A stretch of 64,000 nt of DNA from Lachnospiraceae bacterium (GTDB lineage Bacteria > Bacillota > Clostridia > Lachnospirales > Lachnospiraceae), in contig JAAUZT010000006.1 in NCBI GenBank assembly GCA_014804485.1, positions 31,181 to 95,180 of the forward strand, in the 5' to 3' direction. The notes under the pieces were generated by a model that was not told the origin of the DNA, searched no databases, and saw only the letters and a program-made list of their open reading frames with translations. Below are positions 18,820-57,753 of the stretch, piece after piece. The position numbers and the translations under genes are program-made. Within the stretch, counting starts at the first letter, position 1. The number at the start of each line of letters is the position of its first letter.

Positions 18820-18910
18820 CGGGTGTAATATAAACTGCCGTACCACGGCGGGACAGAGAATGGGAGAAATACATTCCATACTACAATACAAGAAGAGGTG
18901 GGACAGAGAA

Positions 18911-28221: not shown

Positions 28222-28327
28222 CGGGAATCAGTATTTCCGCCGATATTCTATATGAATTAAGCGCTTAAGTAGGGCGAAGCGTTTAAGATAAACTTAATAA
28301 ATTAAAAGAAAGAAGGAGAATGTAAAC

Positions 28328-28786
28328 ATGAAAAGAGAACAGAAAACATTAACAAACAAAGGTTTCTCCCTTGTAGAGTTGATCATCGTTGTTGCGATCA
28401 TGGCTGTATTGATCGGTGTATTGGCTCCCCAGTACTTAAGATATGTGGAGAAGACCAGACTGCAGAGAGATAACACATCAATGTCTGATTTTGCAAATGT
28501 GGCGAAGATCGCATGTACAGAGGAAGATGTCAATACATCAATTCCGACCGGTGGTGCAGAGTTCGTTTTCGATGGAAATGGCGTATTGCAGCATTCCGGA
28601 CAATCAGCTCTTGATAATGAGATTGATAAAACGGTGCTTATTACTGACGTTAAATTGACATCCAACACCTATAAAGGCACTACACCTAAAATAACAGTAA
28701 AGGTAGATAGTAATGGAATCGTGTCGGTTGAATGTGATGCTTGGATTAATGCACCTGGCGATAATCCTACTAATAAGACATTCTAA
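28328..28786 (+). CDS. pilA: type IV major pilin-like prepilin
   Basis: NKGFSLVELIIVVAIMAVLIGVLAPQYLRYVEKTR class III signal. Confidence 0.88.
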   Translation: MKREQKTLTNKGFSLVELIIVVAIMAVLIGVLAPQYLRYVEKTRLQRDNTSMSDFANVAKIACTEEDVNTSIPTGGAEFVFDGNGVLQHSGQSALDNEIDKTVLITDVKLTSNTYKGTTPKITVKVDSNGIVSVECDAWINAPGDNPTNKTF

Positions 28787-28818
28787 TCAGTTTATAACAT
28801 CTTGAAAGGACACAGCCC

Positions 28819-29577
28819 ATGTTACCCGCAATAATGCTCTACATAATCATATTCCTCTACGGGATCGTGATCGGCAGCTTTTTGAATGTCTGTATCTTCC
28901 GCATTCCGAAACAGGAGAATATCGTTAAAATACGGTCACACTGTATGAATTGCGGGTATCAGCTGAAATGGTACGATCTCGTGCCGGTATTCAGTTACCT
29001 GTGTCTTGGAGGAAAGTGTCGCAGTTGTAAACAGAAGATCTCCGTTCAGTATCCTCTCATTGAGCTGCTGAACGGAGTGCTCTACTGCACCGTGTTTGCG
29101 GTGTATGGTTTAAGCGTGGAAGCCCTACTTTATGCGCTGCTTACATCTGCGTTGATCGCCTTAAGCGTGATCGACTTTCGGACTTACGAGATCCCTGTGG
29201 GGATCAACATCTTTATACTGACATTGGGGCTGATTCGCATAGTGACTGACTATGCTGATTGGCTTGACTATGCAGTCGGCTTCTTTATTGTCAGTGGCTT
29301 TCTCTATATTGTTCATTTGGTTACTAAGGGGCGCGGCATCGGCGGAGGAGATATTAAGCTGATGGCTGCAGCCGGACTTTTACTTGGATGGAAACTGATC
29401 TTACTCGCCTTTGTCTTGGGCTGTATCATCGGTTCCGTTGTACATGTTGCTCGTATGAAGATAAGCGGACAGGGGCATATGCTTGCTTTCGGTCCGTATT
29501 TGTCCGTTGGGATTCTGATTTCCGCATTGGTGGGAGATCAGATGTTAGCATGGTATTTATCATGGCTTGGATTATAG
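28819..29577 (+). CDS. pilD: prepilin peptidase
   Basis: GSFLNVCIFRIPKQENI, CMNCGY/CRSCKQKISVQYPLIELLNG, GRGIGGGDIKLMAAAGLLLG. Confidence 0.93.
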   Translation: MLPAIMLYIIIFLYGIVIGSFLNVCIFRIPKQENIVKIRSHCMNCGYQLKWYDLVPVFSYLCLGGKCRSCKQKISVQYPLIELLNGVLYCTVFAVYGLSVEALLYALLTSALIALSVIDFRTYEIPVGINIFILTLGLIRIVTDYADWLDYAVGFFIVSGFLYIVHLVTKGRGIGGGDIKLMAAAGLLLGWKLILLAFVLGCIIGSVVHVARMKISGQGHMLAFGPYLSVGILISALVGDQMLAWYLSWLGL

Positions 29578-29808
29578 GGTGCAGCCTGTCTGGGTTAGGA
29601 TATATAGGATTCAGGCGTACGGAGCATAGAATTATAGATTGAAAAACAGTGGTTATTTTAAAAGTTATGTTCTATATAAGAATCGTATGATATGGATTAT
29701 TTGAATTAGATTATAATTACATTTTGCGTGACTATTTTAGATGTTGTGCATAATGGATTTAAATAAAGGTGGGTTCCGGAGACAGGAGCCGACGAAAGGG
29801 GAATATCG

Positions 29809-31458
29809 ATGCCAAAGATACTGGGAATAGAAATAGGATCCTCGAAGATCAGGATCTGCGAGGAGGATTACAAGACTAAGAATCCTAAGGTGTACCACTC
29901 AGTCAGCATCAAGACGCCGCAGGGAACGGTGAATGACGGGATGCTGCGTGTTGATGAGAAGCTGATCGGTACGATCAAGACAGCACTTCAGGAGAATAAG
30001 ATCAGGACGAAACAGATCGTCTTTTCCGTGAATTCCACGAAGATCGCGAATCGTGAAGTCGTCATTCCGTTTGTAAAAGAGAATAAAGTAAAAGATTTGA
30101 TCAAGGCGAATGCGTCTGATTATTTTCCTGTAGACTTGGAGCAGTATGAGGTCGGGCACAGTATTGTCAGCACTCTGGAAAATGAGAATGGCACGAAACA
30201 GTATAAAGTGCTTGTCTATGCTATACCCAAGACTATGGCGGCAAGTTATATGCAGCTGGCGCAGGCGCTTGGAGGTAATGTTGTCGCACTGGATTACTGC
30301 GGTAACAGTATCTACCAGATCGTCCGCAGGCATTGTGACACAGGTGTCCAGATGGTAGTCAAGGTAGATGAGAGTTCTACGATCGTCACGATCCTGCAGG
30401 ATCAGGCGGTGGCGTTGCAGAGAACGGTTGCATACGGCGTGGAGGATGCCATCTTCGCCATGATGGATATGGAGGAGTTCCGGAAGCCGGATTATGAGGA
30501 AGCGGTACGGAACTTTAAAGAGAGGGAATGCCTGAACGACGAGCTTACACAGTCCCTCAGCTATCTGGTCAGCGGCATATCGCGTGTTGTGGATTATTTC
30601 TCACGTAACAACGGCGCTGCCATAGAGAAGGCTTATCTGTCCGGCTTCGGTGGGGATTTTAACGGGCTTGCCGAACTGGTTTCCAATGCCATCGAGATAC
30701 CTTTAGAACCCCTTCGTGAGATCAAAGGCTTACATATTGAGAAATATTTTAAAGATAAAGGCTTCGGCGAATTCTTAACCTGTATCGGTGCATCGCTGGC
30801 ACCCATCGGGTTCATGGGCGAGCAGAATAAGGATAAGAAGTCGCTGGAACTGCTTCCGGACGAAAAGGACAGAATGAAGGTCGCGATCCTCTTTGCGGTA
30901 GCGGCATTCATAGGCGCGGCAGTTCTGGCGGGGGTTTCCTATATCAGCCTGAAGTCGGCACAGGATGAAAATGCCAGACTGAATAACCGGATTACGGAGT
31001 TGGCGGAAGCGGAGGACATCTATAAGGAGTATCTACAGCAGAAATATACATTTGATAAGCTTACGTTTTTCGAGAGCAATACTGTGACATTGAATAATGA
31101 TCTGGTAAGTTTTATCGAAGAGATGCAGCATAAGATGCCGGCCTCCTTGAATGTACTCGCTTTTAACGCGGATATAAACGGCGTGAGCCTGTCAGTAACA
31201 GTCGCGGATAAGAAGGAGGCGGCGAAACTGATTCAGGAGTTCCGTACCTTCGAGAGTGTAGCAGGAGTAGAGGTTACCAGCATGACGGACTCAGGAGCCG
31301 TGATGGACGGAGAAGTGCTGGAGGAGGAACCGAAGGTAAGCTTCACGGTCCAGGTACAGTATAAGGGCGGATTAAACGATCCCACACCGGCTCCGGTGGT
31401 GCCGGACCTGACGGAAAGCGCTGACACTACATCATCTGATGAAGACATTTTAGAGTAG
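29809..31458 (+). CDS. PilM-like actin-fold protein fused to a PilN-like TM/periplasmic-type domain
   Basis: MPKILGIEIGSSKIRICEE...YFPVDLEQYEVGHSIV (PilM) followed by one TM helix and LVSFIEEMQHKMPASLNVLAFNADINGVSLSVTVADKKEAAKLIQEFRTF (PilN-like). Confidence 0.8.
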   Translation: MPKILGIEIGSSKIRICEEDYKTKNPKVYHSVSIKTPQGTVNDGMLRVDEKLIGTIKTALQENKIRTKQIVFSVNSTKIANREVVIPFVKENKVKDLIKANASDYFPVDLEQYEVGHSIVSTLENENGTKQYKVLVYAIPKTMAASYMQLAQALGGNVVALDYCGNSIYQIVRRHCDTGVQMVVKVDESSTIVTILQDQAVALQRTVAYGVEDAIFAMMDMEEFRKPDYEEAVRNFKERECLNDELTQSLSYLVSGISRVVDYFSRNNGAAIEKAYLSGFGGDFNGLAELVSNAIEIPLEPLREIKGLHIEKYFKDKGFGEFLTCIGASLAPIGFMGEQNKDKKSLELLPDEKDRMKVAILFAVAAFIGAAVLAGVSYISLKSAQDENARLNNRITELAEAEDIYKEYLQQKYTFDKLTFFESNTVTLNNDLVSFIEEMQHKMPASLNVLAFNADINGVSLSVTVADKKEAAKLIQEFRTFESVAGVEVTSMTDSGAVMDGEVLEEEPKVSFTVQVQYKGGLNDPTPAPVVPDLTESADTTSSDEDILE

Positions 31459-31470
31459 GAGGAAGAACTG

Positions 31471-32226
31471 ATGAAGAAAAATGAAATAATGCTTTTGTTG
31501 GTCGTGTTCGGAATCCTTGCATTGGTTGTTTCGTGGCAGCTGATCTATAAGAATAATCAGACGAAGACACAGGAGATTGAAGCAGAGAATACGGAACTGC
31601 AGCAGACAGTAGACCGACTGGAGATCCTCAACGGTAAGAAACCGGAATATATTACAGCTATAGAGCAGATGAAAACCACTGATGATCGCATCATTGACAG
31701 TTTTGCATCAGGGGTCCGGGTAGAAGATCAGGTTATGTATCTGTATAATATGGAGTTGGTTGATGCGAACGATGTGCGGGTGCCTAATGTCAGCCTGGAG
31801 GCAGCGCAGATCGTACCGTATGAAGGGACGCTTGCCACGTCGGAGGGGTATGAGCTTCATGACGATGGTATCGGCATGTACAGGCTGGGAACTACGGTCG
31901 GGATGACGACGACCAATAACGGTCTGAAGAATGTACTGAATTATATATACGGCATGGATTCCAAAAAGTCTGTTACCGGAGTTGCCCTTATGACAGACGT
32001 AGACGGGTATTTGACGGGTAATATGCAGTTAGACTTTTTCTACCTGACCGGAACGGAAGTGCCTTATGTGGAGCAGAATATTTCCGGTGTCTCCACAGGA
32101 ACCACCAATATCTTCGGTGTCTTGAACGGCAGTGCGGTACAGCCCGTAGGCGGACAGAGCGGAGACTTGGAAGGCGAAATGACAGATACAGAAGGCGAGG
32201 CAGCAGAGGCGGAAGGTGAAGATTAA
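31471..32226 (+). CDS. PilO-like pilus assembly protein
   Basis: N-terminal TM then coiled coil, position directly after PilM-PilN. Confidence 0.65.
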   Translation: MKKNEIMLLLVVFGILALVVSWQLIYKNNQTKTQEIEAENTELQQTVDRLEILNGKKPEYITAIEQMKTTDDRIIDSFASGVRVEDQVMYLYNMELVDANDVRVPNVSLEAAQIVPYEGTLATSEGYELHDDGIGMYRLGTTVGMTTTNNGLKNVLNYIYGMDSKKSVTGVALMTDVDGYLTGNMQLDFFYLTGTEVPYVEQNISGVSTGTTNIFGVLNGSAVQPVGGQSGDLEGEMTDTEGEAAEAEGED

Positions 32227-32275
32227 GGTATGGATCGCACAGCATGGCATATACGGCCGGAGAGGAGGAGACAAA

Positions 32276-33562
32276 ATGAAGAAGAGTAATAAAGGTTTTA
32301 CATTGCTGGAGCTTTTGATTGCAGTTTGCATTCTGGCGATCATTATTGTGCCGCTTCTTCGTGGATTTGTCTCATCACACCGGGTCAATGCCAAGAGCAG
32401 ACACCTTATGCGGGCAACGACGCTTGCACAGAATGAGATGGAGGTGTTTGAGAAGGAGAAGCTGGAAGACCTGCTGGATGACACGAAATTTGACTACGAT
32501 GTGGATGATACGACGCTCAGAACCGATTCAAAGGGGGATGAGCATACGGTTTACACGTTTAAGCGTAGCGGCATTATCAATGATGAATCGGGCAGAGATA
32601 TGTTTGATGTGGTAGTGACGTTAGATCCGAGCGTTTCTTCGGCAGGTATATATGATGCGCAGAACACCGAGGAAATGTTGTTCATGAATACGGTCAGCGG
32701 CATGGACAGCGCCACATATATTCAGCGTGTAAGGAATGTAATTAACACCAACGGCGATGATGAGGAAGTCTACAAGCTCTATACGATCCGCCAGTATCCT
32801 GAAAGCATTTCGGGACACAGATGGTCGGCGGAAGAATTCGGTGTGGAGCTGGAAAGGAAGATTACGTTAAAGATCGAGCAGGAAGATCAGGCCGGCGTCA
32901 TGACGACTGTGGCGAAGATCAGGTATGACTATGAGCTTCCTTCGGCATGGGCTGTTAATGTACTGCCTCCCGAATACTATAATTATACCACCAAGGACAA
33001 AATATTTTTCAATAATGCGCAGACATTGGATGAAGATGGTAATCCCATTGAGTTGAAGAGCGTATATCTTTTCTATGCGCCCAGATATGACACACTCAAT
33101 GTGGATGAAATAATAATAGAGAATAAAGATAAACTTCCGGTCAATGTCTATATTATCCGGCAAAATGTTCTGGATGCCACGGATAAGATTATAGGAGTGT
33201 ATGAAGATGAGACGTTAGGTCTGCAGAATACGATACCTCCCCAATATCAGGCTCATATAGAAATAAACGAGGGATTTGACGCGGACGGCAAGACCTATGG
33301 CAGATATTTTACGAATCTGAATCTGGATCTGCCGGGAGTAGTCGGAGCGGGAATGCCTGTAGATTTGAAGCTGAATGACTGCGATAATCCGGGGCGGTTC
33401 TTTACCAAAGATGAGATTCTGGAGTATACCGGTTTGCGCTCTCTCGATTCGACAGAGAAAAAGGACAGGATCTATACTATGGAGACGGCGGTTTATGAGC
33501 ATGGGGCTGATCCTCTGACAAGCGATCCGGTGGTGCGGCTGACAGGCACCAAGATAGAGTAA
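32276..33562 (+). CDS. prepilin-type N-terminal methylation protein (minor pilin)
   Basis: MKKSNKGFTLLELLIAVCILAIIIVPLL; AGGAGGAG upstream of ATG 32276. Confidence 0.85.
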   Translation: MKKSNKGFTLLELLIAVCILAIIIVPLLRGFVSSHRVNAKSRHLMRATTLAQNEMEVFEKEKLEDLLDDTKFDYDVDDTTLRTDSKGDEHTVYTFKRSGIINDESGRDMFDVVVTLDPSVSSAGIYDAQNTEEMLFMNTVSGMDSATYIQRVRNVINTNGDDEEVYKLYTIRQYPESISGHRWSAEEFGVELERKITLKIEQEDQAGVMTTVAKIRYDYELPSAWAVNVLPPEYYNYTTKDKIFFNNAQTLDEDGNPIELKSVYLFYAPRYDTLNVDEIIIENKDKLPVNVYIIRQNVLDATDKIIGVYEDETLGLQNTIPPQYQAHIEINEGFDADGKTYGRYFTNLNLDLPGVVGAGMPVDLKLNDCDNPGRFFTKDEILEYTGLRSLDSTEKKDRIYTMETAVYEHGADPLTSDPVVRLTGTKIE

Positions 33563-33597
33563 GTCAGGAAACGGCAGTGAGGAGGAATTCGGTAAAT

Positions 33598-36075
33598 ATG
33601 ATGAACGCAGATAAGAGAGAAAAGATATATCGGGATAACAAGGGCAGTGTCATGGTCATGGTCATTGTTATTATTGCGTTTATTGCGATCTTAGTGAGCG
33701 TCTTGATGTTCGTGTCTTTTTCAGGATATCAGATGCGTGCGGTTGACAGACGCGGCAAGGATAACTTCTATACTGCGGAGACGGTGCTGGACGAGATCAA
33801 TGTAGGTCTGCAGGGTGAGATCTCCGCTGCGCTGAGTAAGGCTTACAGCGAGGTCATGAATAACTTTGCATTATACAAGAGCGCCAACGCGAGAAACAAG
33901 GCGTTCCACGAAATCTATTATAAGGAACTGAAGGAATGCTTATGGAAGAGCAGTGCGGAGGAGAATAATTACAGCGTTGATACGTTGCGGAGTTATCTGT
34001 CCAGCGGTAGTCTCGGAGACGGTGACGGAACGCGAGCGACCTTCTTAAGCGGTGCGGCTACCTATGGCGCTATTGTGGAATCCAATCTGGAATATGCCAC
34101 AGAACCGGAAAAATATAAGATGGAGATCGTCAATAACAGCAAATTACTGCTGAAAGATCTGAAAGTTTCCTATGTGGATGAGAGTGGTTACATATCCATT
34201 ATCAGTACTGATATCAGGATCACAATGCCCCCTGTCAACTTTTCACAGGCATCTGCGCTTCCCAGTTTGGAGGACTGCTGTTTGATCGCTGACGATACGC
34301 TTGTCATGGGCAATACCAATGCAGGCGGCAGTATTGTGGTCAAAGGGGATGCTTATGCGGGACAGATGTTCATCGGCAAGCCTTCTGATCCGGTATATTC
34401 CGTATTTGATAAGGATAAGAAACCGTCTGAGAAAACGCCGCTTTCTCTGCCGACACTGCTTTCCACCAGTGTTTCCTTCGAGAAGACGTATAACGCGGAG
34501 GCGTTAAGCAAGTCCTTGGTGATCAGCAGAGAGAACATTGAAGTGGCGGAAAACAGCACTCTCAAGACGACAGAGGCGGAACTGTGGGCACGGAATCTGG
34601 AATTGGACTCAGCCACTGCGGAACTGGATGGTGTGGTTAATCTGAAAGATGATTTTACGTTATCCGGCAAAAACAGCAAGGCGGTTATCAAAGGCGAGTA
34701 TGACGGATTCGGCTATATTGCGGACGAAGAGGGATCCGGTGGCGGAACAGGGGGCAGTGGTGACGGAACGGGTGATCCGGCGGACACTGTCGATACACGT
34801 CCGGATTCCAGCAGCGCGATCGTCATTAACGGTAAGGACAGCACACTTGATCTGTCCGGTCTGGAGCGTATGATGATCAGCGGAAGAGCATATGTTTCCA
34901 CAGCCTATAACGCGGCGGATACCTCGGCAACAGAGCAGGAGAGGCAGAATCAGACAAATATTCTGATGGGAGAATCAGTTGCGATAAAGAGTAATCAGTT
35001 GATTTATCTGGCACCTTCAGAGGCGATCGGATGCAGGATCGATGAAAACGGAATCATCGGCGCTTCGGAATACGGGTGTAATCCGTTGACACTTGAGCAG
35101 TATGAGGAGATAAAGGATAATCCGGACAAGTATCGTCTTCTGGACGGATCAAGACAACTCTCCGTATTGGGATATAAGCGCCTGAATGACTATATCAGTG
35201 AGGAGACCCTGGCGGACGGCTCGCCGGCATATGTTCCGGAGATCGTGTTCCGGCAGACGAATGCAGGGCCGCTGGTATACTGCTATCTGCGCTTTACAGA
35301 TGAGGATGCGGCCAACAAATATTTTGTGGATTATTATGCCATCAATTCTGAGGCGGTTGACCGGTATACGCAACTCTATGCCAAAGAGATTAAGATGTCG
35401 GATGATTTGTTGTACCTGAGTCTGGCGGGAAACATGCTGACTTATGAGGGGTACGAAGGCTGGTCTGTACTGTCGTCTACGGAGTCTACCGTCAATCTGC
35501 AGCAGGCGAAGAGGCTCTCTACAGCGAAGGACGATGTGTTCAAGGCACTGAGCGCTAAGATCATGCGGACTTCCAATCAGCTCACCAGTGAGGAGATGGA
35601 TAAGACCGCATTTCCGAATATCATGAACGAGACCGAGATCGAGATCATCTTACATATAAAGGGTGCACAGGAGGTCAGAATCGATACGCTGGGCGCAAAT
35701 CCGGATAGTATGATCCTGACGAAAAAAGATGAATATGTGGTAGATGGCCATACGCCGTCTTCTGTTAAAATGATTGTCAGTCTTGGGAACGTGACGGTGA
35801 AGAAAGACTTTAAGGGTCTGATCATTGCCAAGGGTAATCTGACGATAGAGGCAGGCGCGTCAGTTACCTTAGAGCCATTGGATACGGATACTTTCTCCAA
35901 TATCCTGCAAACGAAGATCGATGAACTGTCAACGACGGATCGTGATTATCATCTGCTGAATATCTTTAATGATGGCGTGAATTATGTCAATAGCGGCAAC
36001 GCAACGACAGATATGGGTACGCAGCAGGTATCCTTCGTTGATTTGATTACTTATGAGAATTGGAGCAAGAAATAG
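33598..36075 (+). CDS. large PilX/GspK-like pilus component with unusual C-terminal ectodomain
   Basis: NKGSVMVMVIVIIAFIAILVSVLMFVSFSGYQMRAVDRRGKDNFYTAE, lacking Glu5; located between prepilin genes. Confidence 0.65.
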   Translation: MMNADKREKIYRDNKGSVMVMVIVIIAFIAILVSVLMFVSFSGYQMRAVDRRGKDNFYTAETVLDEINVGLQGEISAALSKAYSEVMNNFALYKSANARNKAFHEIYYKELKECLWKSSAEENNYSVDTLRSYLSSGSLGDGDGTRATFLSGAATYGAIVESNLEYATEPEKYKMEIVNNSKLLLKDLKVSYVDESGYISIISTDIRITMPPVNFSQASALPSLEDCCLIADDTLVMGNTNAGGSIVVKGDAYAGQMFIGKPSDPVYSVFDKDKKPSEKTPLSLPTLLSTSVSFEKTYNAEALSKSLVISRENIEVAENSTLKTTEAELWARNLELDSATAELDGVVNLKDDFTLSGKNSKAVIKGEYDGFGYIADEEGSGGGTGGSGDGTGDPADTVDTRPDSSSAIVINGKDSTLDLSGLERMMISGRAYVSTAYNAADTSATEQERQNQTNILMGESVAIKSNQLIYLAPSEAIGCRIDENGIIGASEYGCNPLTLEQYEEIKDNPDKYRLLDGSRQLSVLGYKRLNDYISEETLADGSPAYVPEIVFRQTNAGPLVYCYLRFTDEDAANKYFVDYYAINSEAVDRYTQLYAKEIKMSDDLLYLSLAGNMLTYEGYEGWSVLSSTESTVNLQQAKRLSTAKDDVFKALSAKIMRTSNQLTSEEMDKTAFPNIMNETEIEIILHIKGAQEVRIDTLGANPDSMILTKKDEYVVDGHTPSSVKMIVSLGNVTVKKDFKGLIIAKGNLTIEAGASVTLEPLDTDTFSNILQTKIDELSTTDRDYHLLNIFNDGVNYVNSGNATTDMGTQQVSFVDLITYENWSKK

Positions 36076-36086
36076 GAGCTGTTGGG

Positions 36087-36656
36087 ATGAAGGATAACAG
36101 AGGATTTTCGCTGGTTGAATTATTGGTAGTTGTCGCGATCATGGGGGTCATGAGCGGCTTCGTCTTCATCGGACTGCCGTTATTGACCGGTCAGAATGCA
36201 AGGGAATGCGCCAACAATATGTCGGCGGCGCTCGGCAGGGAGAAGAATTATGCCCTGACCAGATCGGGTACCGCAGATTGTTACATGGAACTGATGCTGG
36301 ATTCCGACGGCTATCGCGTGAAGTACTATATACCGCAGAATGCCGTTGTGGAGGGGCATAATGGGTCGGATTGGGTTCTGGCGGAGGAGCAGAAGATAGG
36401 CAGCGGTCAGGTGAACGTGACATGTTCTTTCAGGGATGGCTCAAGTGTCGATATCACGAGCGGGCAGTCCGTGAAGTTTGTCTACAACCGTTCTAGCGGT
36501 GCGTTTAAGCAAGCTGTGCAGTCGGACGGGTCTACGCTTGGAATTGTAGGAGGCGGCAGTGAGTACTGTACCGGCGTTACCTTTGACAGAGGCAAAAAAT
36601 ATGAGATCACTTTATATCCGGAAACCGGTAAACATGTATTATCCAGAGTGAATTAG
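36087..36656 (+). CDS. prepilin-type minor pilin (GspH/FimT-like)
   Basis: MKDNRGFSLVELLVVVAIMGVMSGFVFIGLPLLTGQNARECANNMSAALG. Confidence 0.85.
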   Translation: MKDNRGFSLVELLVVVAIMGVMSGFVFIGLPLLTGQNARECANNMSAALGREKNYALTRSGTADCYMELMLDSDGYRVKYYIPQNAVVEGHNGSDWVLAEEQKIGSGQVNVTCSFRDGSSVDITSGQSVKFVYNRSSGAFKQAVQSDGSTLGIVGGGSEYCTGVTFDRGKKYEITLYPETGKHVLSRVN

Positions 36657-36687
36657 TCTGTTGGGATCAGATGGAAAGGAGAGCACT

Positions 36688-38646
36688 ATGGAAAAGAACA
36701 GAGGATTGTCCTTGGTCGAACTATTGATTACAGTTGCAATATTGTCTATTGTTATGGTGATTGCGATATCTTTCATGATGACGGGAAGCAGAAGCTTCAC
36801 CAAGGGCAATGCCGACTCTACGGTGCAGAAGGAGGCGGAACTTACTGTCAATCAGATAGAAGATATGATCATAGATATCAACGGCGGTGTCTCCATGATT
36901 GACGATGCCGATAAGACGGAGTTGACGATGTATCATACCGAAGATGATGGAAGCGGAACCGGCGCCATGCTTTACTCTAAGGAGGCGGTGACATGGAACA
37001 AGTCGGATAACAATGTGTACTGCAGTAAGTGGAGAGTCAACTATGATGATTCTACCGGCGCTTATGCGGTGGATGCTTCGGCGACTGATAACTATGTGGA
37101 TCAGCTTCTGGCGGAGCATGTCACTTCATTCGATGTGGATCTGAGCGATACCTTGACGACCACAGCATTGAATGGTACGACGCGGACGATCGTCAAGTCC
37201 GTACTCGTCAAGGTAGGTTATGATGACGGCACGGGTATAGTCGATTATGCCACAAGTCCGGTCATTACGCTCCGTAACCGTATGCTCTTAAGTGACGATC
37301 CGGCGGATATCTTCGATGAGGTCACACCTGCGGCGGATACTCTGAAACTGTACTATTCAGGTATGGAGACGGCGGGAGTCGTACCTATCGTGGATCGTGT
37401 ATCCGAGGTGCAGAGAGGAGCTGTCTACTCTATCTATGCAATGATCAATATCGGGTCGGATGTGAATGACTTGGTAGATTGGGAAATTGCGGAGACAGGA
37501 ACATTAAGTACGATCGACAACAATGGAATCCTCACTGTCGGCACATACGAGGCGAATGCTTATCTGACGATCACGGCGAAATATAAATCCAATACGAGTA
37601 AGAAAGCGACAGGCGTTGTGAAGGTTGTGGGAACTACGCCGTTAAAGTCTCTTAAATCTGTGCATATTCTCACGAAGTCTATGCCAGCCTATGAAGCACA
37701 TTATGGTTCTACGGTCGTTACAGAGGGATTTAGACAAGATGAGGTAGATGCAATCACATATAAGTGGACAGTTGCGTTGATGGGTGGCGGAAGAGAAATT
37801 TCGAGCGTTGCGGAAGATTTTACCGATAACAATAAAACGCTGGATTTGATGATTAAGAAAGATCCTTTGAATTTTGGACAGATTCTTGTGATTACGTTGA
37901 CGGCGCATTCGGATATCACAGGAGAGACTGTGTCTGACCAGGTGATGTATCGAATAAATGATGAAGGAGCGGTTGGCGGCGATTCCTTTATGGAACGTGG
38001 CAAGGGCGGTCACCATGATACTGATTACTGGTTCGAAAATGATTGGGGGAGCAATCATTGGTATGATTACTATTTCTGTGATATATATGGTAATCGTATT
38101 TCAGAATACGATAGTCTACTGAGTTGTATAACAGTGGAGGATAGAGGATGTACGGCTTATGGATTGTTCATTTCTAATGATCTTCCGGTAAACAGGAGTT
38201 ATTATATAAAAGTTATATGTTACTGTAGTGGTACCGATTGGCAGGGACTTGAAAAGAATTGGCAGCGCGAGTTTATTCAGTACATTCCGGAGGTTCGGAT
38301 GTATGGGAAGTCGAATTATGAGTCGACAACTGTAAGCTCTATATTTAATTTCTACTATGTTCTGGATGGATATTATGAAGTGGCGTGGATGAATCAAAGT
38401 GATCCAATTTACGAATATAGTGTTGAAGAATTTGACTATGAAGTAAAAGATGGCGCGGTGGCGGTGGTAACACCTCAATTTACAGGTAATACGGTAACAC
38501 TGGGAGATGACTGTACGATGCATTCATGGGGGAGCTTTACGTGTGAAGGCGCTGCGGATAAGGTAGTGTTAAAGAGCATGAGGATTAGGGTGTCAATGAA
38601 GGAGCACCCAGAAATATACACGTATTCAACTGTCATTTTTGAATAG
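36688..38646 (+). CDS. very large minor prepilin with Ig-like ectodomain
   Basis: MEKNRGLSLVELLITVAILSIVMVIAISFMMTGSRSF; later VDWEIAETGTLSTIDNNGILTVGTYEANAYLTITAKYKSN (BIG2-like). Confidence 0.75.
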   Translation: MEKNRGLSLVELLITVAILSIVMVIAISFMMTGSRSFTKGNADSTVQKEAELTVNQIEDMIIDINGGVSMIDDADKTELTMYHTEDDGSGTGAMLYSKEAVTWNKSDNNVYCSKWRVNYDDSTGAYAVDASATDNYVDQLLAEHVTSFDVDLSDTLTTTALNGTTRTIVKSVLVKVGYDDGTGIVDYATSPVITLRNRMLLSDDPADIFDEVTPAADTLKLYYSGMETAGVVPIVDRVSEVQRGAVYSIYAMINIGSDVNDLVDWEIAETGTLSTIDNNGILTVGTYEANAYLTITAKYKSNTSKKATGVVKVVGTTPLKSLKSVHILTKSMPAYEAHYGSTVVTEGFRQDEVDAITYKWTVALMGGGREISSVAEDFTDNNKTLDLMIKKDPLNFGQILVITLTAHSDITGETVSDQVMYRINDEGAVGGDSFMERGKGGHHDTDYWFENDWGSNHWYDYYFCDIYGNRISEYDSLLSCITVEDRGCTAYGLFISNDLPVNRSYYIKVICYCSGTDWQGLEKNWQREFIQYIPEVRMYGKSNYESTTVSSIFNFYYVLDGYYEVAWMNQSDPIYEYSVEEFDYEVKDGAVAVVTPQFTGNTVTLGDDCTMHSWGSFTCEGAADKVVLKSMRIRVSMKEHPEIYTYSTVIFE

Positions 38647-38745
38647 CAGAAGCAAGAGTGTTATAATGCAACCTTTGGATTCAGGATAACGGGAGTGCCT
38701 ATCAACTTCACAGCTTGTTTCGATGGGCGGATGGGAAGTGAAAAA

Positions 38746-41700
38746 ATGAAGAGAATGATAAGAAACAGAAAGAAACTGAATGGCAAGCGTATTGCAGCGG
38801 CGGCAGTGGCGGGACTGTCCGCTGCCGCTGTTGTTATGACAGCGGTACTGTCTGATGTGATGGAGGCGGAAGCGGCGGATACTTTGCTTGGTATCGAGAA
38901 GCTTCGTACCCGCTATAAAGAGAGCGGACGTGAATTCGTTATTCTGGAAGTTGTACCTGACAGGGCAGCGGCGGAGATCGGATATCTTGTCAGTGGTTAT
39001 GAGCCCATCCTGTGTGAGTGGGATGAGGAGGAGATGGTCTGGAGTAACTGGAAGAACACTTTATGCGAACTGCCGGCGAGAAGCCGTGAGGCCTTCGTAG
39101 AGGATAAGAAAAATGAACTGCGGGAGTACTATGCAAAACAGGGGATTGAGAAAAATTTCCCGGTGGAAGCCATAGAGGACAAGTACGAAGAGGGAGAACC
39201 GAGGCAGGAGGGTTTCGAGAGGATCGTATCCGATGGCGCTAGGAAAACGGGCTGGTTTGAAAAGATCAGTGGTACTCCGGCGGAAGGAACAGACAGATAT
39301 CAGGTTGCTTTTGACTACAAGGGTCCGTTTGGCAATGAGAGTTTGGAGTTCGAAGATACTTTGTATTATACAGTTTCAAGTGCTACCAAGATAACTTCAA
39401 CTATGAAGATAGAGTCCGACAGACCCATATATGTCAAAACAGGTGACATATATGAATATTGCGGCACATGGGAAGAAGTCAATAGTGTGGTGACAGCGTC
39501 TTTTTCGGAGGATTCGTCGGAGAAAGATGAGGAAGAAGAGGAAAAGCCTAAGCCGGATGACGGAAAGAATGATGGCGATAATAAAAATGACGATGGCAGC
39601 GGCGATGAGAATAGCGGTGACAGCGGCAGCGGTGACGAAAAAGAGGATAATGACGGCAGCGGCGACGACAGCAGTAACGAGGATAACAACGGCGGCGACG
39701 ACAGCAGTAACGAGGATAACAATGGCGGCGACGACAGCGGCAACGAAGATAACAACAGCGGCGACGACAGCGGCAACGAAGATAACAATGGCGGCGACGA
39801 CAGCAGTAACGGAGATAGCAATGGCAGCGGCAACGGGGATAACAACAGCGGCAGTAATGACGACAGTAACGGTGGTTCCGACAGTAACGATCAGCCGGAG
39901 GGTGCCGGCAACGATATAAGCAATGATGATGTTGCGAAGACAACGACATCCATTTTTGCATCTCTTCGAGAGGGCAAGTGGTTTAAGCTGGTTGCGGATG
40001 ATACTCCGGCGGACGGCTCCGGTGACAATACAGGAGCGGACGATCAGCTAAAGCCCAGTGAAGGCGAGGGTTCGAACAGTGATTCTGACGTAGATAAGCC
40101 GGATAAGGACGACAATACGGATAAAGATCAGTCAGATTCGGATGGCAACACAGATCAGGATAATACAAATCCGGATGATGCAGACGAGGATGATAGTGCG
40201 GATTCGGACGAGACAGAAACGGATGATAACAGCGATCCGGATAAGGATGAGCCGGCGGCAGATGACCCGGTTGAAGATGATGAAAGTGATAAGAATACGT
40301 TCGCAGTGGGAGAGGCAGGGGAATATTATCTGGTTGCCTTTGAGAGACAGTCTGCCGAGGAGGATCCCGCACTCGGTACACCCATGTATGCAGTAAAAGG
40401 TAAAAATGATATCGTATTGAGTGAAGATGGCGAGTATGTATTTGTGGAATGGGATGAAAGTATGGGCTATAACCAGCCCATACAGGAATACACTTTCGCC
40501 GGTAAAGAGATCTGGTGTAAGAATACATTCAAGAGTAACGAGTGGTTTAAGAAGTATGTTCTCAATATGGATAAGGCCGATTACGATGATTTCCGTATCA
40601 AGGTATTGACATTCACTCCACAGGAACTCAATGACATGGAGAAGATACCGAACTTTGATTTCCTTTATCTTAATTCCGGATTAAGAGTAGATGGACTTGA
40701 AGACGGCGGAGATATTTCAGGCAATGATATCGACACCGGAGATGACGGCAATACGGATAACGGCGACGCCAACGGAGACGATGGAAATAATGAAGGATCC
40801 GGAAGCGAAAATAAGGTAAGCGCTGATGCCGGCAATGAGATAATGACGAAGCTGTTGGCGGCCGAATCTTTACAGGGCCAATGGCGCAGGCTGGTTGCAG
40901 ACGATAATCCGGAAGGGAACACCGATGGATTAGGAACAGACAGTACCTTAGAGAATGACAACGGTTCCGATACGGATAGCGATTCCGCAACTGCCGAAGG
41001 TTCCGATGCGGACAGCAATTCCGGAGACAGCGGAGATTCTGATAAGGACAGCAGCTCCGGGAATGTCGGGGATTCCGATGCAGGCAGTGATTCCGAAAGC
41101 AACGGCAGTTCTGACACGGGCAGCGGTTTGGAGAATGCCGGTGACTCTGATACAGACAGCAATTCTGAGAATAGCGACGACTCTGAGACCGGCGATGACA
41201 GCGGTTCAAAGGATGACGATGATGCCGGGGAAGTCAGTATCTCGGAGAATAATATCGGTTCTGATAAGAAGACTGTTAAGGCATCTTCCGATGGCGATAG
41301 TGATATCGTTGACGAAAAAGTGCATAACTATTCGGCGGATAACGATCTGTCTGATGAGGTGTTGAAATATTTCTTTGATATAACGATCGCAGGCGCGAAA
41401 CCGTGTCTGGTAGATGGTTCTATTCTGTATGCGAAAGATGACAGTGGTAGTATCGCGGTCAATGAAGAACTTCAAAACACCAATATATTCAGACTTTCCG
41501 CGATGCTCTGTCAGGATAATCTGAGCGAATGGTATGAGCAGCATCGTGCTAATTATACGAGACTGTCCGTGACACAGTTAATGAACGGCATTGTGGAGGA
41601 TGCGGATAAGAACTTTGTGGAAGAGCAGGTCTACTGCAGATTCGGCAATGGCAGTGATTCCATCATTAATGACCTATTCTATGACGCAACGATTTATAAG

Positions 41701-44700
41701 GACGGCGGCGAGATCGAACCGGGCTTCCAGTGTGTTCTGGATGAGATCAAACTGGACAATCTGTATCGTGAAGCGGATACATCGGGGAATTATAAGCCTC
41801 TTTCCACTAGTATATCGCAGGCGAAGGCGGTACGGCATATTCTGAATTACAGAGATCGCAGGAAAGTAGAGACGAAGAAAGATATCCGGGTATTGGAGAT
41901 CCAGCCGGCTATGGCGGATACCCCTGAGCTTACATTAGATCAGCTGAAGGAGTGGGCGCCCGGAGTAGAGACTGCTGATATCACGGTTATGACGACGGCG
42001 GAGTTTATCGGCAAGATCGAGAAACTGAATGAAACTTACGACCTGATCTATATCGGTACGAGCAAAGATCATCTGAATATGCGTTATTGGATGGATAGAA
42101 ACTATACGGGCAAACCGGATAAGAACCATATTCCCTCCGGTACGGCGTTCAACGATGCGGATATGGACGGACTGATCTATTGTAATATCGGTGATCTGCG
42201 TGTTACATACATGCCGCTGGCAGGGCAGCTGGACACGGAATATTGGAATAATAACCGGAACGAGAATGTATATTACTATAATTATATGCGTTATGGCGGC
42301 AATGACATTACGGAGGAGAAGAAGGAAGCTTTGTTGTCCTTCCTGGATGGTTCCTATCCGGTTATCATTGCGGATGACTTCATAGAGCAGCCGGCGACGA
42401 TATATGAAGATATCGAGTATAGAGCCAGCCGCGTAAATCTTGCAGAAGGAGAATATACCCAGAAAGATCTGCAGGCGCTTGGCGTACCGGCAAGGGTGAT
42501 CTCTTCCCTTAAGGTGAAGAAAGGCTATAGAGTGACTGTTTTCGATCAGGATAATTTCCAAGGGAACAGTGCGGTATTTACGAAGGATGAGATCAATTTT
42601 GTGACAACGGCCTCTCAGGGGAACTGGAATGACAGGGTAGTTTCCCTGATCATAGAGCGGGAGGAAAATGCGGAACCGAGCCGGCGGATCGATGAGGACC
42701 ATATTGATAACTGTACCTATTTATATGAATTCGTCAAGAAGGCGCTGGATGACAAGTATGTGAACTTCTATACCTGGGGTGACATCGGGGAGGATTCGGA
42801 ACTTTTCAAGTTCTACCTGAATCGGCCTAAGGTAAGTCTGACTGAGACTGCGGTGGGCGGCGAAGTAAAGGAAGGCAGTGATATCTACTATATTAATTCG
42901 GATATGAACGGAAGATACAGTCTGAATTATCGTTTTAAAATTCAGAACGAGGGAACTGCTTCCTATAATACCAAATATCGCTGCAAACTCTATATAGACG
43001 TGAACTCTGACGGTAAATTTTCCGCGCAGGAGGAAATAGAGGATATCAGTATCACGCAGAACGGCGGTTCTGTATCGGCGGATGCATTGTATGCTGACAG
43101 ATCCTACATACTTTCCAGGCAGGTTCCCATGGGATATAAAGGGCTGCTTCCGTGGAGACTGGAGATCACGCAGGCCGATAATCCGAATATTTATACTTCC
43201 ATGAGCGGCTTTACCAAGCTGGAGGGCATGGAACAGGAACAGATCAAGGTCTTACAGATCGGGCGTGATGTAATTAAGGATGTAGACTGGTGGGGCCGTG
43301 AGTGGGAGAGACTGTTTGATCTCGGAGAGGAGATCAGAACACCCGGAACAATTTATAATACGCTGGTATATGGCGGAACGATAGACGGCGTTTATTACGA
43401 GGGGATAACGAAAGATTTTGATATTGATGTAACCTTTAAGACGATCCCGGAGTATGAACAGGAGTATGCGGCGAATCCGGAGTATCTGAAGGATTTCAAT
43501 ATGTTGATTCTGGGATTCAGCGATTCGTACGGAGATTTCAGCGGAGATGCCGAGACGGGCGCGATGGGGTCTATCATTGATTTCGTAAACAGCGGCAAGA
43601 GTGTTCTGTTTGCGCATGACACGACTTCTTACTTCAATTATGAGAAGAAAGGAGGAGGCTATCCTAATTTTAACGGTGTGGGTTATCCCTGGAGAGATAA
43701 TCATAATGACACGAGAAGTCATGATCAATATCACTGGGCCAGCACGCTGAATACGTATTTTCGTAATCTGGTCGGCATGGATCGTTTCGGCATCCTGAGT
43801 ACCGGGACGCTGCAGCGCGGAGATGTGCTGCGCGAGGGAACCGAAGCGTTTAAGGAGGTCGTTGAGTCAAGGTATGACGTGGCGTATAAGCCTAAGAGCG
43901 GCAAGAAGGAAACAGTGCCGCAGGTACACGGGTATACTTACCAGCTTATTAATGCAAAAGATCTTGCGGCAGACGGGGGCCAACAGAAAATTGACTATAA
44001 CAGATGGGAACTGGATATGTCGAAGGCGAATAACTGGAAATTTTCCAATACCTATAGGAATATACGCTATGACAAGGTGTATTACGCGGGTGGAGCCTCT
44101 GAGAACGATAGATACGGTGAAGTGGTATCGCCTTACAACGGTGAGATAGATCAACTTTATGTAAACCAAGTGAATCGTGGACAGATCGTGGAATATCCGT
44201 ATAAGCTTCAGGAGCGTTTTGAGGTTGCAATGACGCACGGACAGTACTATGAGCTGGACTATACGGCGGACGACGACGGCGACGGACAGAGTGATCTGGT
44301 AGTGTGGTACTGCCTTGGATCAAGGGGAGCGAACGGCGCCGAGACAATATATTCCCAGTCGCCCAATGATGTGAGGAATAATTACTATATTTATAACAAG
44401 GGAAATATAACTTATACCGGTATGGGGCATAGTGCCGCACAAAATCTGAGGTATACAGTAGAGGAAGCGAAGCTGTTCATCAACACGATGATCGCATCCT
44501 ATCAGGCAGGTATCAAAGACCCGCAGATCAGTGTGCTGAAACAAGGTCTTCCGGAATCCGAGGAGATGAAACTGCTCTATAGATATTATGATGCGGTTAA
44601 TGACTTCTCCTTGAATGATGCAGTGGCATCGGATGGCTATGAGAAGATTTATTTCACGGTACAGGATATCAACTTCATTAAGGGAACCAGAGAGATCGAA

Positions 44701-45021
44701 TCGCATGTATATTATAAAGATGATAACGGCGGCGAAGTGATCAACGTGGACGGCGAAGATATCAGGGTTAACCGTCTTGCGGACTATATGTTTAACGCCA
44801 AGGACGGAAGCCCGGTAGATGCCTCTAATCTGACCAGCGGCGGTATCTATTACATTCAGGTGCCGAGGGACATCATGAAGAAGTGTGAGGATGGGCTGGA
44901 TCTTTACTTTGAGGCACAGAGTACCATTACCACCAATACGACAAAGAAAAATGTATATACCACCGAAAAGGTATATGCTAAGCTGAAGGTATTACAGGCG
45001 TATTTGTTCAATTTGGAGTAA
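38746..45021 (+). CDS. giant secreted/surface protein (DUF5057-like) with acidic low-complexity linkers and a beta/gamma-crystallin-like module
   Basis: Signal-like N-terminus RIAAAAVAGLSAAAVVMTAVLSDVMEAEA; FVILEVVPDRAAAEIGYLVSGYEP; Asp/Ser/Asn-rich repeats; GYRVTVFDQDNFQGNSAVFTKDEINF...NWNDRVVSLII. Confidence 0.75.
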   Translation: MKRMIRNRKKLNGKRIAAAAVAGLSAAAVVMTAVLSDVMEAEAADTLLGIEKLRTRYKESGREFVILEVVPDRAAAEIGYLVSGYEPILCEWDEEEMVWSNWKNTLCELPARSREAFVEDKKNELREYYAKQGIEKNFPVEAIEDKYEEGEPRQEGFERIVSDGARKTGWFEKISGTPAEGTDRYQVAFDYKGPFGNESLEFEDTLYYTVSSATKITSTMKIESDRPIYVKTGDIYEYCGTWEEVNSVVTASFSEDSSEKDEEEEEKPKPDDGKNDGDNKNDDGSGDENSGDSGSGDEKEDNDGSGDDSSNEDNNGGDDSSNEDNNGGDDSGNEDNNSGDDSGNEDNNGGDDSSNGDSNGSGNGDNNSGSNDDSNGGSDSNDQPEGAGNDISNDDVAKTTTSIFASLREGKWFKLVADDTPADGSGDNTGADDQLKPSEGEGSNSDSDVDKPDKDDNTDKDQSDSDGNTDQDNTNPDDADEDDSADSDETETDDNSDPDKDEPAADDPVEDDESDKNTFAVGEAGEYYLVAFERQSAEEDPALGTPMYAVKGKNDIVLSEDGEYVFVEWDESMGYNQPIQEYTFAGKEIWCKNTFKSNEWFKKYVLNMDKADYDDFRIKVLTFTPQELNDMEKIPNFDFLYLNSGLRVDGLEDGGDISGNDIDTGDDGNTDNGDANGDDGNNEGSGSENKVSADAGNEIMTKLLAAESLQGQWRRLVADDNPEGNTDGLGTDSTLENDNGSDTDSDSATAEGSDADSNSGDSGDSDKDSSSGNVGDSDAGSDSESNGSSDTGSGLENAGDSDTDSNSENSDDSETGDDSGSKDDDDAGEVSISENNIGSDKKTVKASSDGDSDIVDEKVHNYSADNDLSDEVLKYFFDITIAGAKPCLVDGSILYAKDDSGSIAVNEELQNTNIFRLSAMLCQDNLSEWYEQHRANYTRLSVTQLMNGIVEDADKNFVEEQVYCRFGNGSDSIINDLFYDATIYKDGGEIEPGFQCVLDEIKLDNLYREADTSGNYKPLSTSISQAKAVRHILNYRDRRKVETKKDIRVLEIQPAMADTPELTLDQLKEWAPGVETADITVMTTAEFIGKIEKLNETYDLIYIGTSKDHLNMRYWMDRNYTGKPDKNHIPSGTAFNDADMDGLIYCNIGDLRVTYMPLAGQLDTEYWNNNRNENVYYYNYMRYGGNDITEEKKEALLSFLDGSYPVIIADDFIEQPATIYEDIEYRASRVNLAEGEYTQKDLQALGVPARVISSLKVKKGYRVTVFDQDNFQGNSAVFTKDEINFVTTASQGNWNDRVVSLIIEREENAEPSRRIDEDHIDNCTYLYEFVKKALDDKYVNFYTWGDIGEDSELFKFYLNRPKVSLTETAVGGEVKEGSDIYYINSDMNGRYSLNYRFKIQNEGTASYNTKYRCKLYIDVNSDGKFSAQEEIEDISITQNGGSVSADALYADRSYILSRQVPMGYKGLLPWRLEITQADNPNIYTSMSGFTKLEGMEQEQIKVLQIGRDVIKDVDWWGREWERLFDLGEEIRTPGTIYNTLVYGGTIDGVYYEGITKDFDIDVTFKTIPEYEQEYAANPEYLKDFNMLILGFSDSYGDFSGDAETGAMGSIIDFVNSGKSVLFAHDTTSYFNYEKKGGGYPNFNGVGYPWRDNHNDTRSHDQYHWASTLNTYFRNLVGMDRFGILSTGTLQRGDVLREGTEAFKEVVESRYDVAYKPKSGKKETVPQVHGYTYQLINAKDLAADGGQQKIDYNRWELDMSKANNWKFSNTYRNIRYDKVYYAGGASENDRYGEVVSPYNGEIDQLYVNQVNRGQIVEYPYKLQERFEVAMTHGQYYELDYTADDDGDGQSDLVVWYCLGSRGANGAETIYSQSPNDVRNNYYIYNKGNITYTGMGHSAAQNLRYTVEEAKLFINTMIASYQAGIKDPQISVLKQGLPESEEMKLLYRYYDAVNDFSLNDAVASDGYEKIYFTVQDINFIKGTREIESHVYYKDDNGGEVINVDGEDIRVNRLADYMFNAKDGSPVDASNLTSGGIYYIQVPRDIMKKCEDGLDLYFEAQSTITTNTTKKNVYTTEKVYAKLKVLQAYLFNLE
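39658..39846 (+). repeat. in-frame 33-bp tandem repeat encoding [G/S]GDDS[S/G]NEDNN
   Basis: Units at 39658, 39691, 39724, 39757, 39790 plus a degenerate partial unit. Confidence 0.9.
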
Positions 45022-45083: not shown

Positions 45084-46778
45084 ATGGATTTTAACAGAAA
45101 AAAGATACGTCTTGGCGACGTGCTTGTCAACAGCGGTGTTATTACACAGGAACAGCTTGAAGAAGGATTGAAGCGCCAGAAGGGCAGCGGACGGAAATTA
45201 GGAGAAACTCTGGTAGATGAGGGGTTCGTGACAGAGGAAGCGATTGCCAGGGCATTAAGCAGCCAGCTTGGCTATGAAATGGTGGATCTGCAGAATGTGG
45301 CGATACCGGACGATATTCTGAAGCTTGTGCCCGGTAATGTGCTGGAGCGCTATAAGGTACTGCCTTTCGAGTATGCGCCGGACAATATGAACGTGCTGCA
45401 TGTGGCGATGGCTGATCCGATGGATATGGCCGCGATGGATGATATCACGATCATCACTAATCTTCAGGTGGAACCGGTGGTGTCCACGACAAGAAGCATC
45501 ATGCTCGCTCTGGATAAATATTTCGGCAATGTGGAAGTTAATTCCGCATTGGAGGAATATACGAGGGAGAAAGAAAGCCAGATGGCTGAGCAGGAGGATA
45601 TGTACAGCGAAGACGTGAACAATTCTCCTATTGTCCAGCTTGTTAAGACAATGATCGACCAGGCGGTCAGACAGCGTGCTTCCGATATTCATATAGAGCC
45701 GATGGAGCGTCAGGTGCGTATCAGATACCGTATAGACGGTGCTTTGTATGAGAAAGTGACCTACAGCATCCGGCTGCTTCCGGCGATGGTTGCCAGAATC
45801 AAGATCATCGGCGGCATGGATATCGCAGAGAAGAGGAAACCACAGGACGGGCGTATCACACAGATTGTAGACAGACAGGAGTTCGATATCCGTGTTTCGA
45901 TTCTGCCTACAGTATACGGCGAGAAAGTGGTTATGCGACTTACCTCGAAGAATGCGCTCACCAGAGAGAAGAGTCAGTTAGGATTTAAGCCCAAAGAGCT
46001 GAAACAGTTTGACCATATCTTGCGGAATCCGCATGGTATCCTGCTGGTTACGGGACCTACCGGAAGCGGTAAGTCAACGACACTGTATACGGCGCTCAGT
46101 GAATTAAATAAGGTAGATGTTAATATCATCACCGTAGAAGATCCTGTGGAGGCAAATATTGACGGAATCAATCAGGTGCAGGTGAATAACAAAGCGGAAC
46201 TGACTTTTGCCAGTGCCCTGCGTTCCATTTTGCGACAGGACCCGGATATTATCATGATTGGTGAGATCCGTGACCAGGAGACGGCGTCCATCGCCGTTCA
46301 GGCGTCCATCACGGGACACCTTGTAGTATCTACGCTGCATACGAACTCGGCGGCAGGTACGATTACCCGTCTGATGGATATGGGAATCGAGCCCTATCTG
46401 ATCGCGGATTCCGTAGTGGGTGTTATTGCACAGCGACTTGTACGCCGGCTCTGCCCGGAGTGCAAGAGAGCTAAGAAGCCGAATGAGGAAGAATTGGAGT
46501 TATTATGTCTTGAGCCGGATGCGGATGTCACCATCTATGAGCCCTGCGGCTGCTCTAAGTGCGACGGCACAGGTTTTAAGGGCAGAATCGGTGTCTATGA
46601 GATCATGGAAATCACGCAGCCGATCAAAAATATCATCAGCAAGAACGGCGATGCCGAGGCAATCAAGGGCAAAGCTCTGGAAGAAGGCATGAATACGCTG
46701 CGTATGAGCGCTACCGAGTATGTGTTGGACGGAATCACTTCCGTCAATGAGATGATGAAGGTTTCGTTCGACCTGTAA
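45084..46778 (+). CDS. pilB: type IV pilus assembly ATPase PilB (GspE family)
   Basis: RLGDVLVNSGVITQEQLEEGL, GPTGSGKSTTLYTALSELN, RQDPDIIMIGEIRDQETASIAVQASITGHLVVSTLHTNSA, CPEC...CSKC zinc motif. Confidence 0.95.
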   Translation: MDFNRKKIRLGDVLVNSGVITQEQLEEGLKRQKGSGRKLGETLVDEGFVTEEAIARALSSQLGYEMVDLQNVAIPDDILKLVPGNVLERYKVLPFEYAPDNMNVLHVAMADPMDMAAMDDITIITNLQVEPVVSTTRSIMLALDKYFGNVEVNSALEEYTREKESQMAEQEDMYSEDVNNSPIVQLVKTMIDQAVRQRASDIHIEPMERQVRIRYRIDGALYEKVTYSIRLLPAMVARIKIIGGMDIAEKRKPQDGRITQIVDRQEFDIRVSILPTVYGEKVVMRLTSKNALTREKSQLGFKPKELKQFDHILRNPHGILLVTGPTGSGKSTTLYTALSELNKVDVNIITVEDPVEANIDGINQVQVNNKAELTFASALRSILRQDPDIIMIGEIRDQETASIAVQASITGHLVVSTLHTNSAAGTITRLMDMGIEPYLIADSVVGVIAQRLVRRLCPECKRAKKPNEEELELLCLEPDADVTIYEPCGCSKCDGTGFKGRIGVYEIMEITQPIKNIISKNGDAEAIKGKALEEGMNTLRMSATEYVLDGITSVNEMMKVSFDL

Positions 46779-50137: not shown

Positions 50138-50542
50138 ATGATTATGAGTACCCTAGCAAATACCAATGTTTTTGACTATGTCAATGTGCTGGACAAGGCG
50201 ATGGATGCATCATGGCTTCGTAACGATGCCATATCGAACAATATTTCCAATGCCGACACACCGGGTTACAAGAGACAGGATGTAAACTTTGAGACACAGC
50301 TTGCCAAGGCGCTTCGCAGCTCCAGATACAAGAGTATGGATGCCAAGGTAGCGGATGTGAAGCTGAACCGCTTGAAACCTATTACATACACGGACTATTC
50401 AGGTTTCTCGTACCGTATTGACGGCAATAACGTGGACCCCGATACGGAGGGCGTATATCTTGCCAAGAACCAGGTGGTATATCAGGGACTGGAGCTGGCA
50501 GTGAATCAGGAATTTAAGAATCTGCAGGCAGTTATGAAATAG
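50138..50542 (+). CDS. flgB: flagellar basal body rod protein FlgB
   Basis: ALDKAMDASWLRNDAISNNISNADTPGYKRQDVNFE-like. Confidence 0.95.
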   Translation: MIMSTLANTNVFDYVNVLDKAMDASWLRNDAISNNISNADTPGYKRQDVNFETQLAKALRSSRYKSMDAKVADVKLNRLKPITYTDYSGFSYRIDGNNVDPDTEGVYLAKNQVVYQGLELAVNQEFKNLQAVMK

Positions 50543-50556
50543 AAGGAGAATTGACT

Positions 50557-51003: not shown

Positions 51004-51046
51004 TGAAGAGAATATAATATAAGGGTTTGTGTACGGAGGGAAGAAA

Positions 51047-51373: not shown

Positions 51374-51457
51374 CGGCTGTGGGGAGCAGACTGCCGGATC
51401 GGTGCGCGCCTTGCGCAGGTAAGGGTATAAGGGAAGACTGAAGGAGAATGAGTTGCT

Positions 51458-53068: not shown

Positions 53069-53073
53069 GATAA

Positions 53074-56273: not shown

Positions 56274-56286
56274 GGGGTGACCTGTC

Positions 56287-56739: not shown

Positions 56740-56741
56740 GA

Positions 56742-57617: not shown

Positions 57618-57753
57618 GGATTTATATCCGCGGCACTTTAGAAATTGCAGCAACGAGACGATATATATTGCAGCGGCGGAATTCGCCGTATGCTTTATAT
57701 ATATATATGCCGAAAGGCAGGAACCTTGAAAATTGAAGAAAGGAGGAAAGAGT

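Follow-up and report, generated by a model that had tools for sequence, protein, structure and literature searches.

A giant DUF5057-family protein in a Lachnospiraceae type IV pilus locus: a candidate PilY1-like tip protein

A giant secreted protein encoded next to minor-pilin genes

We analysed a window of 64,000 nucleotides from a Lachnospiraceae bacterium (GenBank assembly GCA_014804485.1, contig JAAUZT010000006.1, positions 31,181 to 95,180) and within it a very large gene, at 38746-45021 on the forward strand, that lies inside a type IV pilus locus. The gene is an uninterrupted open reading frame (ORF) of 2,091 amino acids (aa; 233 kDa; pI 4.23), in agreement with the ~2090 aa given by an earlier reading of the letters alone, here called the sequence-only reading. 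Because relatives at 57-98% identity retain the gene at full length, a chance ORF is ruled out. An alternative in-frame GTG start lies at 38695, upstream of the ATG at 38746; we prefer the ATG because it is preceded by the ribosome-binding-like GGGAAGTGA, whose spacing and sequence are kept in relatives. The genes of the locus are as follows.

18860..19966, forward strand: pilT retraction ATPase (TIGR01420, 476 bits at G000:C6:50100-51122)
27007..32226, forward strand: pilC, prepilin, pilD, pilM-like and pilO/N-like genes of the same cluster (profile searches)
32216..33562, forward strand: minor prepilin, I/PilV-like, Glu5 present (profile searches)
33577..36075, forward strand: large minor prepilin, K/PilX-like, no Glu at +5 (NKG/SVMVMVIV; sequence)
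36060..36656, forward strand: minor prepilin, H/FimU-like (profile searches)
36661..38646, forward strand: large minor prepilin, J/PilW-like, immediately 5' of the giant gene (profile searches)
38746..45021 including the stop codon, forward strand: giant DUF5057-family secreted protein, 2,091 aa (ORF translation, full-length relatives)
45084..46778, forward strand: pilB extension ATPase, downstream of the giant gene (T2SSE 470 bits, MshEN)

The genes upstream of the giant gene run in the order pilC, prepilin, pilD, pilM-like, pilO-like and four minor prepilins, and pilB follows on the 3' side, so that the placement between minor-pilin genes and pilB described by the sequence-only reading holds. 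The K/PilX-like product gives a sub-threshold match to PilX_N (E 0.19). Since pilT is present, the pilus is probably retractile. Beyond pilB lie topA and a gene for a CodY-like regulator (both named from sequence), and these two alone separate the pilus cluster from a flagellar operon at 50138-62528 (flgB, flgC, fliE, fliF, fliG, fliH, fliI onward).

The N-terminal helix of the giant protein, noted earlier as signal-like, reads on inspection as a signal peptide with a basic n-region, a hydrophobic core and an AEA/AD cleavage site; inspection found no class III prepilin leader. The parts of the protein are listed below.

38746..38880, forward strand: signal peptide, residues 1-45 (sequence inspection)
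38881..41460, forward strand: alpha/beta domain 1, with conserved blocks at residues ~60-95, ~595-646 and ~863-905, interrupted by two linkers (profile comparison)
39508..40320, forward strand: linker 1, rich in Asp/Ser/Asn/Gly, containing a 33-bp repeat (composition)
40684..41331, forward strand: linker 2, rich in Asp/Ser/Gly (composition)
41875..42795, forward strand: alpha/beta domain 2, with a crystallin domain inserted (family alignment, profile comparison)
42394..42651, forward strand: beta-gamma-crystallin domain, residues 1217-1302, inserted in domain 2 within the DUF5057 match (phmmer, Foldseek)
42796..43236, forward strand: beta-rich domain 1, separating domains 2 and 3, with an EF-hand-like loop DVNSDGKFSAQEE at 42997-43035 (family alignment)
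43237..44520, forward strand: alpha/beta domain 3, the best conserved core, with HDTTS, QVNRGQIVEYPY, THGQYYELDY and NNYYIYNKGNITYTGMGHS (family alignment, profile comparison)
44521..44985, forward strand: C-terminal beta-rich domain 2 (family alignment, profile comparison)
44986..45018, forward strand: tail KVLQAYLFNLE-COOH, a proposed donor strand (comparison of relatives)

Domain architecture and the conserved C-terminal tail

The domain boundaries come from a family alignment of 49 proteins that was cut into segments, which were then compared profile to profile. The three alpha/beta domains proved homologous (probabilities of 96.9% for D1-D2, 95.9% for D1-D3 and 97.3% for D2-D3), whereas two control pairs of unrelated segments scored 0.1-0.2%. 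This bears out an earlier observation of three regions with similar LEI/VLQI strands. The two beta-rich domains are weakly similar to one another (81.6%). DUF5057 (PF16480) matches the protein at 146.6 bits against a Pfam gathering cut-off of 27.9 and is found at E <= 0.1 in 28 of 30 relatives. The sequence-only reading had recognised this family and misplaced it in the first region: the match covers residues ~1184-1216 (its first 33 positions) and 1316-1625, and the Pfam model is thus confined to a stretch that runs from the end of domain 2 through the beta-rich domain into domain 3, of which it takes in half. DUF5057 has no described function, and a search of the PMC library found no mention of it.

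The DUF5057 match is split at profile positions 33/34 by the beta-gamma-crystallin domain, which the sequence-only reading had overlooked and which resembles Protein S (phmmer 1e-10) and clostrillin (8e-9); Foldseek supports the assignment (prob 1.00, TM 0.94 on target). Among the relatives scanned, this domain is restricted to the window's own clade. At E <= 1, hmmscan of the giant protein returned nothing besides DUF5057 and Crystall, and the family alignment, used as a profile against the PDB, matched no solved structure. AlphaFold models of residues 906-2091 and 40-1010, built on 8-9 sequences, reached mean pLDDT values of 46 and 40. Because both models are poor, the Foldseek evidence is limited to the crystallin match, and weak structural matches to beta-mannosidases and others were disregarded. 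The alpha/beta domains may resemble class I glutamine-amidotransferase/ThuA-like folds; sequence searches against Pfam and the PDB gave no match to such a fold.

Both linkers (residues ~255-520 and ~647-862) are 21-27% Asp plus Ser, Asn and Gly, matching the long Asp/Ser/Asn linkers seen earlier. Linker 1 holds an in-frame tandem repeat at 39659-39829 (33-bp unit, 5.2 copies, encoding GDDSSNEDNNG), which is a likely source of strain-to-strain length variation. Each linker also carries one of two similar hydrophobic islands, SLREGKWFKLVADDTP (39961-39993) and SLQGQWRRLVADDNP (40867-40896), the first of which is kept in relatives, for example as NNKWYLLVGGDTE; these islands may be short binding motifs or remnants of a linker duplication.

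Domain 3 bears a further loop, DDDGDGQSD, at 44269-44295. Loops of Ca-binding type are thus present in the protein, and the DxNxDG-type loop alone is widely kept in the family; the function of the protein may depend on calcium. The strong conservation of polar motifs in domain 3 (HD, THxQYY, NKGNITYTGxGH) goes beyond what a scaffold needs, and would be expected if the protein were an effector or enzyme exported by the pilus, with a catalytic or ligand site in the alpha/beta domains and a tail that serves as an export or recruitment signal for release through the pilus machine. H/I/J/K complexes of type II secretion systems do recognise secreted effectors (PMC10191384). However, we found no convincing enzyme family match, the family profile matches no solved structure, and a monoderm cell has no second membrane to cross; we consider an effector quite improbable.

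The best conserved short element of the family is the tail, which aligns without gaps at the extreme C-terminus. In clostridial members, Leu occupies position -2 in 50 of 51, Leu or Met position -5 in 46 and Phe position -4 in 34, and the last residue is usually Asp or Glu. The motif [LMIF][FLYMHWQ]xL[DENTQKR]-COOH is present in 44/51 clostridial members and in 1/470 identified neighbouring genes, a contrast that is descriptive because the pattern was written after the members had been inspected; the background frequency of Leu at -2 is 29/470 neighbouring genes. This conservation persists at a median pairwise identity of 22% among the clostridial relatives: when they are divided into 38 groups below 40% identity, Leu -2 is found in 38/38 and the motif in 32/38, though the groups, being related by descent, are not independent trials. 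Accordingly, the earlier statement that no C-terminal sorting signal is visible stands for LPXTG and a membrane anchor, but a conserved tail exists that only comparison reveals. The tail also appears where DUF5057 does not match. A 919-aa protein that fills the same slot in a pilus locus shares domain 1 (E 2.4e-10), its last residues being RRDFFMLD, and a weaker candidate (L074, E 0.005) ends IKDLD.

Distribution and linkage to pilus genes

Of 299 Lachnospiraceae genomes, 63 have DUF5057, and almost all of these come from different genera; across the phylum, 7 of 399 genomes have it, among them members of one other clostridial family and of a more distant one (f32). For 42 of the 67 DUF5057 matches, PilM is encoded on the same strand, 7.6-12.1 kb upstream; most of the remaining matches, examined individually, have pil genes wherever the contig allows, with some contig-end matches left out or short of flank (L046, L048). 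The usual gene order is pilC-pilin-pilD-pilM-pilO-I-K-H-J-giant, followed by pilB or topA, and by our count a minor prepilin lies directly upstream of the giant gene in 47/51 clostridial loci, often with a gap of a few bases. PilT is present in 61/63 DUF5057 genomes versus 119/236 others (Fisher 2e-13), and the two genomes without it are fragmented assemblies. The sequence-only reading had named independent transcription together with a lack of genomic co-occurrence as what would refute a pilus role; the lack of co-occurrence is contradicted by these counts.

This linkage also bears on whether the protein is a general SD-repeat-type surface adhesin that merely neighbours pilus genes. Its Asp/Ser linkers would suit such an adhesin, as would a match to the ClfA SD region, although this match is weak (21.7 bits against a cut-off of 1150), of low complexity and confined to an Asp/Ser linker. 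Upstream of the giant gene, a promoter-like site (38639-38667) could likewise indicate independent expression. By inspection, however, this site does not recur in intergenic regions of relatives, and promoter-like matches hardly exceed those in shuffled sequence (27 vs 19.7, sd 5); with a single good-looking site of this kind, we did not adopt an own promoter for the gene. There is neither an LPXTG motif nor a C-terminal membrane anchor, and the linkage extends across 63 genomes of nearly as many genera and to one other clostridial family, so that a chance neighbour is very improbable. A sortase-anchored SD-repeat adhesin of the MSCRAMM/Sdr class was rejected on the missing LPXTG; the sequence ends KVLQAYLFNLE.

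Extra modules differ among relatives and include NPCBM/NEW2, ice-binding-like adhesive, Big_2, SdrD_B, PKD-like, crystallin and Listeria-Bacteroides repeat domains. The f32 protein (L086:1952-6610) carries DUF5057 at its N-terminus and ice-binding-like adhesive and Big_2 domains at its C-terminus. In one pilus locus without DUF5057, a 2,476-aa ORF (L077:5226-12653, minus strand) starts with a class III prepilin motif and encodes a giant modular pilin.

A candidate pilus-tip protein and its comparison with PilY1

In type IV filaments, H/I/J/K subunits make up the tip complex, and the one that caps it is without Glu5 (PMC10191384). Across the relatives, none of 39 readable leaders of K/PilX-like prepilins has Glu at +5, compared with 156/156 of the other prepilins. 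With an H/I/J/K-like set in which the K-like member is the one without Glu5, the locus has what PilY1 docks on. PilY1/PilC1 (PF05567), the Gram-negative type IVa tip protein, is encoded together with minor pilins (PMC7541494, PMC13190605); that of Myxococcus is a Sec-exported non-pilin encoded with four minor pilins (PMC7541494). The giant protein is likewise large, Sec-exported, non-pilin and minor-pilin-linked, and its DDDGDGQSD recalls the Dx[DN]xDGxxD-type loop of PilY1/PilC1. Both have variable modules, PilY1 combining a conserved C-terminal with a variable N-terminal part. For PilY1, the conserved C-terminal end is proposed as a donor strand to a K/PilX-type pilin (PMC11046646, PMC13190605): AlphaFold-Multimer models of Myxococcus PilY1.3 and PilY1.1 (PMC11046646) show beta-strand addition to PilX by the eight C-terminal residues LQNVYELP and SKVLIYAP, and the model was later extended to Neisseria (PMC13190605). 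The conservation of the tail in the DUF5057 family was noticed independently of these Myxococcus models.

Together, these observations lead us to propose that the giant protein is probably a secreted non-pilin pilus-tip protein, a functional analogue and not a homologue of PilY1. It would be exported by Sec as a non-pilin component of the Lachnospiraceae pilus and seated on the four-member H/I/J/K-like minor-pilin complex at the tip, where its tail, KVLQAYLFNLE, would add a beta-strand to the K/PilX-like minor pilin. Three alpha/beta and two beta-rich domains would form the body, and the acidic linkers and swappable modules (here beta-gamma-crystallin) would extend the protein and confer ligand specificity. 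The tip complex would then prime assembly and ride on the tip, so that distal domains could bind a surface or ligand and PilT retract the pilus. Where the sequence-only reading had allowed a pilus-associated adhesin, scaffold or Ca-binding surface protein, the genomic linkage to the pilus and the Ca-type loops agree with it, and the choice narrows to a PilY1-like tip protein.

Several observations weigh against this proposal. PF05567 has no match in the giant protein (hmmscan E <= 1), and homology to PilY1 was rejected; unlike PilY1, the giant protein lacks a beta-propeller and belongs to a monoderm host, and its tip position is proposed by analogy. The AlphaFold models are too poor to show the docking strand. 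The likeness to clostrillin and Protein S extends to one inserted domain, whose Ca2+ motif NDRVVS is degenerate at one position, lacking Ser/Thr at the fifth. The f32 gene adjoins pilB in divergent orientation and its product has no tail. Pil loci L072, L073 and L081 lack such a protein, which is therefore not needed for every Lachnospiraceae pilus. Finally, a hydrophobic N-terminal segment is present in 46/46 relatives but a strict AxA site in only 13/46, so some relatives may stay membrane-anchored.

This last count makes the main rival a wall- or membrane-associated assembly factor that steers the pilus through the thick wall or controls its passage there, with an N-terminal helix left uncleaved in many members and a tail that binds minor pilins or the PilM/O platform. 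Near-obligatory pilus linkage is equally expected of such a factor, and monoderms have neither the secretin nor other outer-membrane parts (PMC6916266). However, the window protein has a clear signal-peptidase site, adhesive and carbohydrate-binding modules suit a tip better than a channel, and several pilus loci do without the protein; we judge an assembly factor rather unlikely.

Reviews treat the PilY1/PilC tip effector as a diderm type IVa feature, absent from the monoderm model Streptococcus sanguinis, and explain adhesion by monoderm pili through modular pilins (PMC10191384, PMC6916266). S. sanguinis PilB and PilC likewise display large adhesive modules on a monoderm pilus (PMC8179133, PMC9934059, PMC6916266), but theirs are built onto pilins that bear a class III leader, and the giant protein has no such leader. 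Among titles, abstracts and selected passages, we found no paper on a PilY1-like protein in monoderms, and the reviews read describe none. If the tip proposal is true, the DUF label has hidden a large and exchangeable pilus adhesin in about a fifth of the Lachnospiraceae genomes sampled, the Lachnospiraceae being abundant in animal guts; DUF5057 would gain a function and a short docking motif, and comparison could separate general requirements of type IV tips from features of PilY1 only. More tentatively, and with slightly less than even confidence, we suggest that monoderms may have evolved their own non-pilin tip family, unrelated to PilY1, that caps H/I/J/K by C-terminal beta-strand addition; tips of type IV filaments would then be capped by donor strands as a general rule, independently reached.

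Some genomes carry more than one member of the family. Tandem duplicated giant DUF5057 genes share one minor-pilin set at L055:10132-19899 and L082:1636-11375, and G166 has two pilus loci with one DUF5057 gene each; these duplications recall the multiple PilY1 clusters of Myxococcus. At L049:2882-5958 (minus strand), a truncated pilC is joined to the C-terminal third of a DUF5057 gene and the intervening pilin genes are missing; the junction reflects a deletion or else a mistake in the assembly.

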